Assembly (NCBI GenBank): GCA_009993045.1
Contig: JAACUG010000088.1
Location: 1-38,454 of the forward strand
Length of the DNA stretch: 38,454 bases
Reading direction: 5' to 3'
Source: Cyanobacteria bacterium CG_2015-22_32_23
GTDB taxonomy: Bacteria; Cyanobacteriota; Cyanobacteriia; Cyanobacteriales; Cyanobacteriaceae
Below, in pieces: positions 12,610 to 35,293 of this stretch. The notes under the pieces were generated by a model that saw only the letters and a list, made by a program, of their open reading frames with translations, ran no database searches and was not told the DNA's origin. Within the stretch, counting starts at the first letter, position 1; each line of letters begins with the position of its first letter. The position numbers were made by a program, and so were the translations under genes.

Positions 12610-13569
12610 TCAAGGATGAATTGAACCATCAGGCATAATAGTACTCCTGAGATTAACACCATTTAAAGCGCTGTTGCGTAAATTTGCACCTTTTAAATCG
12701 GCGGAGAATAAAGAACCATCAATCATGGTAACACGATGTAAACAACTTTCCACCAAATTAATTTTTGCTAATAAAGCGTAACAAAAAATACAGTTTTTTA
12801 GGTTCGTATCTTGTAAGTTTGCCATTCTAAGATCTGCTCCCACAAAAGTAATCTTATTTTTATGGGATGATTTAATATTTAATTCTGATAGTTTGACTTG
12901 ACTGGTATTAGTATTATGTAAAACTGCCCCTGTGAAATTTGCGCCCCGAAGATTAGCTTTTTCTAAATTAACTCCTTGTAAAATTCCTTCACTTATATCT
13001 GCATTACGGAGTTGACTAAACTTTAAATCTGCATAATTCAAATTAGCTTCTGTTAAATCACAACCTTGAAGATTAGCTTCTGATAAATCTGCACGGCTAA
13101 AATCTGCCCCAGTTAAAATTACTCCGCTTAAATTTGCTCCCCTTAAATCTGCTCTAGTAAAATTAGCACCAGCAAAATTAGCCCTGGTTAAGTTACAGTT
13201 TTGTAAATTACTATAACTAAAATTAGTGTTTGCTAATGAAGATTTACTGAGATTTCCGTGACTTAAATCTACATTACTAAGATTTGCACCGTTTAAATTT
13301 ACCCAACTTAAATCAGCATAACTGAGATCTGCATTAGTTAAATTAACACCAATTAATTTTGCACTAATCATGCGAGTGTGAGTTAAATCTGCCCGACTAA
13401 AATTTGCACCGCTAAAGTCACTACCGCTTAAATTTGCCCAATTCAAATCGGCTCTAGTGAAGTCAATTTGTGTTAAATTAGCTTGAATTATATCTTCTCT
13501 GGATAAATTAACTTGACTAAAATCTTTTTGTCCTTGATCATATAATCTGAGCATTTCATCAGCATTCAT
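12610..13569 (-). CDS. Pentapeptide-repeat protein
   Basis: A 319-residue protein made almost wholly of A(D/N)LXX pentapeptides from about residue 20 to 310, for example ANLSGSDFSGANFSRADL. Such tandem pentapeptides fold into a right-handed quadrilateral beta-helix. There is no signal peptide, membrane segment or fused enzymatic domain. A short less regular insert lies near residues 215-245 (TSQVKLSELNIKSSHKNK). Cyanobacteria have many such proteins, mostly of unknown role; the helix can be a DNA mimic or a scaffold. Function cannot be assigned. Confidence 0.93.
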   Translation of the reverse strand: MNADEMLRLYDQGQKDFSQVNLSREDIIQANLTQIDFTRADLNWANLSGSDFSGANFSRADLTHTRMISAKLIGVNLTNADLSYADLSWVNLNGANLSNVDLSHGNLSKSSLANTNFSYSNLQNCNLTRANFAGANFTRADLRGANLSGVILTGADFSRADLSEANLQGCDLTEANLNYADLKFSQLRNADISEGILQGVNLEKANLRGANFTGAVLHNTNTSQVKLSELNIKSSHKNKITFVGADLRMANLQDTNLKNCIFCYALLAKINLVESCLHRVTMIDGSLFSADLKGANLRNSALNGVNLRSTIMPDGSIHP

Positions 13570-31662: not shown

Positions 31663-31858
31663 ATTCGCCTCTAAATCCCCAAGTATGGGGACTTTTTTTC
31701 AATTATTCTCCCCAAAATTGGGGCTGGGGGCAAAATCTGTTTTTAGATTTTTCTTCTAAATTCGCCCCTAAATCCCCAAGAGTGAGGACTTTTTGTGATT
31801 TTTCTCCAAAATTCGCCCCTAAATCCCCAAGAGTGAGGACTTTTTTTGATTTTTCTCC
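31661..31858 (+). repeat. Three-copy repeat containing a terminator hairpin
   Basis: Copy A (31661-31715), copy B (31758-31807) and copy C (31809-31858) share AAATTCGCC, CTAAATCCCCAAG and a GGACTTTTT end. B and C are about 50 bp long, in tandem with a 51-bp period, and differ at a single base. In copy A the CCCC and GGGG arms pair perfectly. In B and C the arms are CCCC and GAGG, so the stem is weaker. Between A and B lies a perfect palindrome, CCCCAAAATTGGGG. Confidence 0.85.
31677..31699 (+). terminator. Rho-independent terminator after the binding-protein gene
   Basis: CCCC, loop AAGTAT, GGGG, then AC and seven T. It lies within repeat copy A, 15 bp past the stop codon. Confidence 0.75.
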
Positions 31859-31877
31859 AAAATTGAAAGGCTTACAA

Positions 31878-33281
31878 TCAGATAAATGTTTCTAAAACAC
31901 CAGTTAAAACGGGAATGGTTTGCCCAGAAACGCTATAAACTAAGGCTTCTCGATAAATTAGATTAGCATCATGAGATAATTTGTTAGCTTCTCCTTTAGA
32001 AGTAATAATAGCGGCCATGGCACATCGATAAGCTAAATTAATAGCTTGTATTCTTAAATCTAACTTTTGAGTGAAATTATCATGGGAGTAAGTTACCATT
32101 TCTAACATTTTTGCCTGTAAATTTTCTACTTGAGCTTTTAATTGAGTATAGCTATATGTAACTTTATCTAACTTTAATTTTTGACAATTATTTTCTAAAA
32201 TTTTTAAACCAGCCAAACTACATCCCAAGGCAAAAAAACCATGATGTAAAACATTTTTCTCGTCTTTTTTATCAATAGCGTGAGGAGGTTTTATCATGAC
32301 AACATCTTCTGAAGGTAAAAAATATTGACTAACATTTGCCGTTACAGTATTTGTACTATTCATAGCAGAAAGTTTCATCGGTGGGCTAAATTCAATAGTA
32401 TTTTGATTTTGAAAAGGCATCATGGCGTATAATTCTTGTCCATCGGGTAAAGTTGCACCGATAATAAAATAAGAAAAAATATCATAACCTGTAATCCAAG
32501 GTATAAAACCCTTTAATTGATAGCCTTTTTCTGTGGGAATTGCTGTTAATAATGGTTTTCCTTTTCTTCTCAAATGAGAAAAACCCACACCACAAAATAG
32601 GTTTTCTTTGATGATTTTTGATAAATATTTTTCTTTAACTATTTTATTTTTACTATTACTTAACATCGCCATAGCACTTTGATGTTGAGTTTGTAAAAAC
32701 GATAACGCACCTGAATATTTTGCTATCATTATTTGCCAGGAATAAAATCCTAAATTACTAATATCTAATCCACCCCAAAATTTTGATAACTTTAATTGAA
32801 AAAAATTATAATTAACTTTATTCATCTTCATTAAAGTTTGTTTAAGAATATCGCTATCCTTATCTATGACTTCTCTTTTTAACAAAACTTCTTTCTCCAA
32901 AAAATTTTCTGCTTCTTGTAAAAGGCTTAACTCTAATGGTGTTAAATTATTAATATTTTCTTCTGATTTAACAGAAATTAAAAAACATTTTTGGTCAAAT
33001 TTTCCCTTTAACTTTCTTTTTTCTTTTTGTACTTTAGCAATAGCTTTTTTATCTAATTTATTAGCTTTAATTATTGCCTCTATTACCTCATAAACATCGG
33101 CTATTTCTTCTTCTAAATTATCCTTATTTGCCGTTAATACTTCTTGGGCTTCTTCTATTAATTTCTGTTTTAAAGCCTCTTTATATTCACCATTAGATAA
33201 CTTTTTCACTTGACATTTTTGACTATCTGAGTTAATGATCTCAGGTATTTTATTTCTAATTAATTTTTGATATTGATTCAT
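31878..33281 (-). CDS. Fusion: MazG-like pyrophosphohydrolase plus acyl-CoA dehydrogenase-like domain
   Basis: A 467-residue two-domain protein. Residues 1-104 match the small MazG-like/phosphoribosyl-ATP pyrophosphohydrolase family. They begin YQKLIRNKIPEII and have the metal site EEAQE (Glu43, Glu44, Glu47) and EIAD (Glu59, Asp62). The natural end is near FDQKCFLISVKSEE. Residues 112-467 look like an acyl-CoA dehydrogenase-fold flavoprotein: the helical N-terminus, SKFWGGLDISNLGF, GVGFSHLRRKGKPLL, the beta-domain segment KGFIPWITGYDIF, and a C-terminal four-helix part ending REALVYSVSGQTIPVL. A catalytic glutamate is not obvious at the usual C-terminal place. The frame is open throughout, so this is one polypeptide as sequenced. 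The function is unknown; house-cleaning of a nucleotide or CoA-linked metabolite is a guess. Confidence 0.85.
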   Translation of the reverse strand: MNQYQKLIRNKIPEIINSDSQKCQVKKLSNGEYKEALKQKLIEEAQEVLTANKDNLEEEIADVYEVIEAIIKANKLDKKAIAKVQKEKRKLKGKFDQKCFLISVKSEENINNLTPLELSLLQEAENFLEKEVLLKREVIDKDSDILKQTLMKMNKVNYNFFQLKLSKFWGGLDISNLGFYSWQIMIAKYSGALSFLQTQHQSAMAMLSNSKNKIVKEKYLSKIIKENLFCGVGFSHLRRKGKPLLTAIPTEKGYQLKGFIPWITGYDIFSYFIIGATLPDGQELYAMMPFQNQNTIEFSPPMKLSAMNSTNTVTANVSQYFLPSEDVVMIKPPHAIDKKDEKNVLHHGFFALGCSLAGLKILENNCQKLKLDKVTYSYTQLKAQVENLQAKMLEMVTYSHDNFTQKLDLRIQAINLAYRCAMAAIITSKGEANKLSHDANLIYREALVYSVSGQTIPVLTGVLETFI

Positions 33282-33493: not shown

Positions 33494-35293
33494 ATGACAA
33501 TAGATCGTGATTTAATGGGTCAAGTTTATCAATGTATTATTGTTTGTCCTCTCTCTCAATCCCCTAAAATTCCTTTTGTTTTTTCCCCTAATTCTTCCCA
33601 TCGATATGCTTTAACTACCCCTATTTCTGATATATCTTTATCTCCTTTTTTGATAGTTGGCGATCGCCATTATTTTTGTTTAGATGTAGTGGATACAAAA
33701 CCCACAGAAAGAGGAATTTTAGATGAAAATTTAGATCATGTAGAACGTTTTGAGCGAGATAGTTTAAAAGAAGCAGGAATCCCAGATTTAGCCTTTACTT
33801 ACTTGACTCTAACAGAATATAGCCCCACAGTACCAGAATTATTTGACGGTTGGGAAGATAAAAATAACCATCAAGAATTTGTAATTATTACCAGTCATAA
33901 GGAAGATCAAAAATTAGAAGATTATTTCCAGAATAATAACTTTAAAATAGCTGAAGTTTTGCCTTATTTACAAAAAACTGCCAAATTATGGAAAAGTTTT
34001 GCGAAAATAGATTGTTGCGAAACACTATTAAGATTAGATAACTTAAAAGTTGACTTAGACGGCACATTAATTATAGATAAAATATATCTTGATTTTCCTA
34101 ATGATCCACCTTTATTAAGACAATTAGTAGAAACATGGGCAAATTTATTAGGAGATTCCCATGATGACTATAAGTCTTTTATCACTGATTTGATGATTCA
34201 AATTGAATCGGGAGACATTGACGATATTCAACAATTACGCTCAGAATTACAATTGTTAGCTCAAGAAATTGAAATGCAATCTTTATTAGAGCAAGAAGAA
34301 GACAAAGAAGGAGAAGAAATGATAATCATACCAGGTGCGGATGAATTAAACGAGTTAGTCAATCAATTTGATTTTGAAGAATCAGAAATTCAAGACGCAA
34401 CCCAAATTAACAATCCTTCAGCCGATGATCAACCGACAATAGTACTTCCTATGAGGCTTTTAAGTCTAACAGAAGTGGGTTTAAGTGATATTGGACGCAA
34501 AAGAGGCCATAATGAAGACTGTTTCGCCATTGAAACTAATATTCAGAAGAAAGAAAGTCCTCAAGGTACTTATTATAATGCCAAAGGTTTTTTTGTAGTG
34601 TGTGATGGCATGGGAGGTCACGCTTCAGGAGAAGTCGCCAGCGCCATGGCAGTTAAAACTTTATATAATTACTTTCAAAAATCTTGGGTAGATGAATTAC
34701 CATCAGCAGAAACCATTAAAGACGGTATTCTTCAAGCCAATGAAGTCATTTATGGGGCTAATATCGAAAAAGGACAAACAGGATCAGGTAGAATGGGAAC
34801 TACTCTTGTTATGACTTTAATTCAAGGTACAAAAGCCGTTATCGCTCATGTAGGTGATAGTCGTATTTACAGAGTAAATCGCAAATGGGGATTAGAACAA
34901 CTAACGGTAGATCATTCTGTAGCACAAGCCGAAATTAAACACGGTATTGAGTCAGATATTGCCTTTGCTAGGCCGGATGCTTTCCAGTTAACTCAAGCTT
35001 TAGGCCCTAGAGATAATACTTTTGTGAATCCTGATATTAATTTTTTGGATATTAAAGAAGATACACTTTTTGTTATGTGTTCTGATGGATTATCTGACAA
35101 CGACTTATTAGAAAATCATTGGGAAACCGCATTATTACCGTTAATTAGCTCTAAAGCCAATTTAGATGAAGGTATTACACAAATTATCGATTTAGGTAAT
35201 CAATTTAATGGTCATGATAACATTACTTGCGTTTTAATTCGCATCAAAGTGCAACCTAATTTAGAACATCAAAATGCTATTTTTCAATCATAA
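33494..35293 (+). CDS. PP2C-type protein phosphatase with divergent N-terminal domain
   Basis: A 599-residue protein. The C-terminal PP2C domain (about 325-585) removes phosphate from Ser/Thr using two metals. Its motifs are GRKRGHNEDCF, DGMGGHASGE (from Asp371), HVGDSRIYR, LTVDHS, SDGLSDN (530-536) and GHDNITCVL (from Gly573). The N-terminal 300 residues carry a segment, EFVIITSHKEDQKLEDYF to LLRLDNLKVDLDGTLIID, that recalls a degraded protein-kinase C-lobe without catalytic HRD or DFG residues. An acidic linker (about 270-310) joins the two. The amidase gene starts 20 bp downstream. Confidence 0.92.
   Translation: MTIDRDLMGQVYQCIIVCPLSQSPKIPFVFSPNSSHRYALTTPISDISLSPFLIVGDRHYFCLDVVDTKPTERGILDENLDHVERFERDSLKEAGIPDLAFTYLTLTEYSPTVPELFDGWEDKNNHQEFVIITSHKEDQKLEDYFQNNNFKIAEVLPYLQKTAKLWKSFAKIDCCETLLRLDNLKVDLDGTLIIDKIYLDFPNDPPLLRQLVETWANLLGDSHDDYKSFITDLMIQIESGDIDDIQQLRSELQLLAQEIEMQSLLEQEEDKEGEEMIIIPGADELNELVNQFDFEESEIQDATQINNPSADDQPTIVLPMRLLSLTEVGLSDIGRKRGHNEDCFAIETNIQKKESPQGTYYNAKGFFVVCDGMGGHASGEVASAMAVKTLYNYFQKSWVDELPSAETIKDGILQANEVIYGANIEKGQTGSGRMGTTLVMTLIQGTKAVIAHVGDSRIYRVNRKWGLEQLTVDHSVAQAEIKHGIESDIAFARPDAFQLTQALGPRDNTFVNPDINFLDIKEDTLFVMCSDGLSDNDLLENHWETALLPLISSKANLDEGITQIIDLGNQFNGHDNITCVLIRIKVQPNLEHQNAIFQS

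Follow-up and report, generated by a model that had tools for sequence, protein, structure and literature searches.

One cyanobacterial family encodes, within a single polypeptide, an N-terminal MazG/PRA-PH-like domain and a C-terminal domain of the acyl-CoA dehydrogenase (ACAD) fold. The fusion gene was studied in a 38,454-nucleotide stretch of contig JAACUG010000088.1 (assembly GCA_009993045.1), hereafter the window. The join between the two halves is genuine and old, and the ACAD-like half is very probably not a beta-oxidation enzyme. Both folds are known; what appears to be new is their pairing, and a family of ACAD-like proteins in which the usual catalytic residue is missing, neither of which we found described in the open-access literature, in keeping with the original prediction that the pairing was undescribed.

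A gene fusion kept across one cyanobacterial family

The continuous 467-codon frame that had been predicted (31878-33281) is encoded by the minus strand; when the same interval is read along the plus strand, stops abound. The features of the gene are as follows.

31878..33281, minus strand: 467-codon fusion gene (ATG to TAA; stop at 31878-31880); open reading frame, with the fusion kept in the family
32970..33281, minus strand: N-terminal MazG/PRA-PH-like domain, residues 1-104, from profiles, alignment and structural matches
33141..33155, minus strand: EEAQE metal motif, residues 43-47; E43, E44 and E47 invariant in 35 sequences
33096..33107, minus strand: EIAD metal motif, residues 59-62; E59 and D62 invariant in 35 sequences
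32940..32969, minus strand: linker, residues 105-114, modelled with low pLDDT and under relaxed selection
31881..32939, minus strand: ACAD-fold domain, residues 115-467, from profile and AF2 fold
32676..32714, minus strand: SGALSFLQTQHQS, residues 190-202; S190, G191, F195, Q199 and H200 invariant in 121 sequences
32565..32582, minus strand: FSHLRR, residues 234-239, at the site of the ACAD (S/T)EPxxGSD loop; R238 invariant in 121/121
32487..32498, minus strand: WITG, residues 262-265, flavin-ring motif kept; W262 and G265 invariant
31917..31955, minus strand: YREALVYSVSGQT, residues 443-455, C-terminal helix region; E445 invariant, MCAD Glu376 position without glutamate

A scan of genome contigs with the single protein gave no matches, and a profile scan recovered the relatives. 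In 14 of the 15 family genomes the fused frame is open (the remaining one is 67% complete), and all members with a match carry the fused form, so the search for the fusion in related cyanobacteria called for by the original prediction showed that the halves are not always separate genes. A sequencing or assembly error that joined two genes would fit the stop separating the halves in relatives outside the family, but the 14 genomes share the fusion and a loose linker lies between two constrained halves; because the fusion is conserved across the family, we consider such an error refuted. Pairwise dN/dS values of 0.08-0.33 in both halves indicate purifying selection, and values for the linker are about 1 or above in most comparisons, which over ten codons is only indicative. 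The shared fusion and the selection on both halves together lie well outside what chance would produce. There is no methionine from the linker to residue 152 of the protein, and therefore no obvious internal start for a free C-terminal protein. One family copy (genome G003, L002:317-1666) terminates some 17 codons early, at a TAG far from the junction, which is either an error or a true truncation.

Outside the family, three other lineages (f12 with Trichocoleus; f20; and f8 with Cyanothece UBA12306 and SU2) have the two as separate genes on one strand, the MazG-like gene first and the ACAD-like gene next after it, about 8-90 bases further on. The MazG gene of these adjacent pairs stops a few residues past the equivalent of residue 104, which bears out the earlier placement of the join where free-standing MazG-like proteins end. 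Because the two halves are adjacent, co-directional genes in these lineages, we read the fusion as an operon pair minus its stop, the simplest history being that the family's ancestor lost that stop. In the ACAD tree, the fused sequences need a single change, with a fused sequence from outside the family (L160) weakly placed. The MazG half of L160 falls outside the MazG clade of the family, and L160 could either have been fused independently or branch deepest.

Two domains of known types, one without the usual catalytic glutamates

The N-terminal half shares the EExxE...ExxD motif, and by prediction a helical bundle, with the all-alpha NTP pyrophosphohydrolases of the MazG/PRA-PH type (HisE, iMazG, DCTPP1 and cyanophage S-2L MazG), but the copy in the window lies below Pfam cut-offs and is fused to an oxidoreductase-like domain. 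Searched as a single sequence against Pfam and NCBIfam, it scores weakly with both PRA-PH (14.8 bits versus a cut-off of 21.3) and the HisE model (E=6e-4). Among 35 members of the MazG-like family, 27 match PRA-PH at E<=0.01, and E43, E44, E47, E59 and D62, the metal motif recognized in the original prediction, never vary. This half was modelled separately (pLDDT 87.6) because a structural search with the full model probes the ACAD half alone; its top matches, which are weak (Foldseek probability 0.97-0.98, E about 1, Z 6.8), are HisE (phosphoribosyl-ATP pyrophosphatase) and iMazG. On sequence grounds, the N-terminal half resembles MazG and PRA-PH and its metal motif is intact; it is a putative hydrolase. 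It is not the only MazG domain of the cell, since the source genome has further MazG-type frames, one containing two MazG domains and two smaller ones.

The ACAD-type nature of the C-terminal part, for which a flavoprotein fold had been proposed and was looked for here, is upheld by both profile and structure. As a single sequence it falls just below the Pfam ACAD cut-off (21.5 versus 22.9 bits), whereas a profile built from 31 relatives aligns with the full length of isovaleryl-CoA dehydrogenase (1ivh) at E=1e-18. The AF2 model of the whole protein is confident (pLDDT 91.5), and its residues 108-467 superpose on MCAD with a Z of 35.4 and an rmsd of 3.2 over 355 aligned residues. Among 121 relatives, the residues S190, G191, F195, Q199, H200, G231, R238, W262, G265, T312, G353, R410, G430 and E445 are invariant.

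The whole-domain fold and the flavin-ring motif are thus common to this half and the acyl-CoA dehydrogenases (isovaleryl- and medium-chain; PF02771/PF00441), but sequence identity is only 13-17%, and the catalytic glutamate, the EPxxGSD loop and the RxxFG segment are lacking. The roles of the catalytic, loop and FAD positions are assigned from what is established for MCAD and IVD. The original prediction that a catalytic glutamate is not evident holds at both known ACAD positions: in the alignment to isovaleryl-CoA dehydrogenase, 110 of the 121 sequences have glycine and 9 have alanine at the position of MCAD Glu376, and that of IVD Glu254 holds a variable K/Q/N/E/R, so that an acid is conserved at neither. 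FS[HQ]LRR stands where other ACADs have the (S/T)EPxxGSD loop. The alignment to IVD also lacks the RxxFG segment (Arg/FG/Gln), which reaches across the dimer to bind the pyrophosphate of FAD; FAD binding is doubtful because of this loss. The flavin-ring residues are kept (S235 in 120/121, W262 in 121/121 and T264 in 116/121), as are G430, R444 and T455 towards the C terminus in nearly all 121 sequences. Judged from these alignments, the ACAD half belongs to a conserved cyanobacterial family in which neither known catalytic glutamate is present and the segment for the FAD pyrophosphate is lost.

An ordinary acyl-CoA dehydrogenase of fatty-acid degradation would account for the fold and the profile similarity, but is highly improbable: the source genome, 99.8% complete, has neither a PF01012 match for ETF nor a second ACAD, no catalytic glutamate occupies either position, and helix 191-208 carries an invariant Q/H. 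With no ETF and no other ACAD in the genome, a replaced substrate-loop motif and polar residues in the putative pocket, the CoA-linked substrate suggested in the original prediction is unlikely. Its view that an ACAD fold is unusual in cyanobacteria is not supported either, as the ACAD-like family is present in 52 of 386 genomes of the phylum.

The losses of both glutamates, the loop and the RxxFG...Q segment, in a genome without ETF, would also suit a descendant that does no redox chemistry or needs no cofactor, serving as a scaffold or as a lyase-like enzyme that kept the fold and gave up flavin chemistry. The retention of S235, W262 and T264, and of G430/R444/T455, in nearly all 121 sequences speaks against such a descendant, which we regard as rather unlikely. 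Because other polar residues are conserved, an active, altered site is favoured over plain decay. The ACAD fold is used for oxygen chemistry by the group D flavin monooxygenases TdsC/DszC, HsaA, HpaB and HadA (PMC10696468). The ACAD half shares that fold and has TdsC among its structural matches, but no profile reaches cut-off (the matches to HsaA, SfnB and DszC, seen in relatives, are weak and far below it) and no flavin reductase is linked. The source genome contains only two PF01613 (flavin reductase) matches, in flavodiiron-like frames of 580-582 codons, neither of them linked, and we found no dedicated flavin reductase in it.

Partners of the ACAD-like family and proposed function

Across the 386 genomes of the phylum, MazG-like genes were found in 21 of the 52 that carry the ACAD-like family versus 4 of the 334 that do not, counts made by hand from a limited number of candidates scored per genome and uncorrected for relatedness. 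In heterocystous and some other lineages, the ACAD-like family is instead fused at its C terminus to a PF04199 cyclase, and in yet others it is followed by a separate cyclase gene (partner loci L028, L029, L037, L038, L046, L075, L076, L083, L084, L139, L142, L145, L148, L150, L154, L182 and others); the source genome has no PF04199 cyclase gene. Compared with solved structures, one partner cyclase best matches a 'cyclase family protein' and isatin hydrolases, and we found nothing relevant on isatin hydrolase or kynurenine formamidase in cyanobacteria in the open-access literature. The two fusions thus share one ACAD-like family, with a C-terminal amidase-type cyclase in the heterocystous proteins and an N-terminal MazG here.

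We tentatively view the protein as a bifunctional enzyme of one cyanobacterial family, combining putative NTP cleavage with O2-linked oxidation. The MazG half would convert an NTP-like nucleotide to monophosphate and pyrophosphate, and the ACAD-like half would oxidise a small polar, rather than fatty-acyl, substrate and pass the electrons to O2, as in oxidases and group D monooxygenases, and not to ETF. The fusion would hold both activities at a fixed ratio for one route, which might most simply clear away or turn over a compound derived from a nucleotide or a heterocycle. The partner of this putative oxidoreductase in heterocystous relatives is instead an isatin-hydrolase-like amidase of the ring-opening type.

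Nearly as likely is a looser coupling, in which the MazG-like domain is a general accessory for nucleotide house-cleaning, acquired next to or ahead of proteins that have nothing in common, and the fusion served to lock in co-expression or the oligomeric state while the two halves share no substrate. MazG-like relatives do occur in loci of the DndD/PbeC type and at the N terminus of a PLD-helicase, and most ACAD-like relatives have no MazG: 68 of the 121 stand alone without a MazG neighbour, and several lineages keep both genes unlinked. The linked MazG genes are moreover scattered over separate places in the tree of free MazG sequences, although a single clade of them is not rejected (AU p 0.126). 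Against an accessory without shared substrate, the pairing recurs in four lineages, in one of them as a fusion, and the two genes decay jointly, with stops in both at one place in two reduced genomes of f8 (L105 and L106).

An extension of the bifunctional proposal, which we consider quite unlikely as it stands, is an undescribed cyanobacterial pathway for oxidised or damaged nucleotide-type heterocycles, built on a new class of ACAD-fold oxidases. The MazG half would strip the triphosphate form of its pyrophosphate, oxidation of the ring would fall to the ACAD-like half, and in other lineages the isatin-hydrolase-like cyclase would open the ring, the two fusions being alternative packagings of a single route. 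The MazG fusion links a widespread cyanobacterial ACAD-like family to putative nucleotide hydrolysis and the second fusion links the same family to a ring-opening-type amidase; together, the two offer a handle on the substrate of the family and caution against inferring beta-oxidation in cyanobacteria wherever the family occurs.

Other MazG- and ACAD-like loci and the surroundings of the gene

Free MazG-like genes lie inside phosphorothioation-type loci (L189, L190, L191, L194, L197, L201 and L204), flanked on one side by a DndD/PbeC-like ATPase and a Uma2-like nuclease and on the other by a DndE-like gene. L192, L198 and L200 also have a DndE-like neighbour; the DndE assignments were made by eye, with no match from PADLOC. 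A review of Dnd systems does not mention MazG (PMC10853773). At L205:1910-4978 and L206:3018-5168, a MazG-like domain forms the N terminus of a large protein in which segments resembling phospholipase D and helicases were recognized by eye. An ACAD-like relative at L093 adjoins an NRPS gene and a class III aminotransferase. An apparent link of the family to aminotransferases and aldehyde dehydrogenases was considered and dropped, the aminotransferases being unrelated (ArgD-like beside two ACADs, and one by an NRPS gene).

No wider conserved operon surrounds the gene: besides MazG and the cyclase, neighbours vary between families. The divergent neighbour in the window is arranged in the same way in six genomes of the family, an arrangement that the others lack, and we do not count it as a component of the system.

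33494..35293, plus strand: protein-phosphatase-2C-like gene, divergent neighbour of the fusion gene

Rfam gave no match within the window. A 51-bp tandem repeat (31746-31864; 2.3 copies, 95% match) lies between the 3' end of the fusion gene and a solute-binding-protein-like gene. Further tandem repeats of 15, 30 and 45 bp (13023-13416) lie in an open reading frame at 12610-13569 on the minus strand, with a spacing that is pentapeptide-repeat-like.
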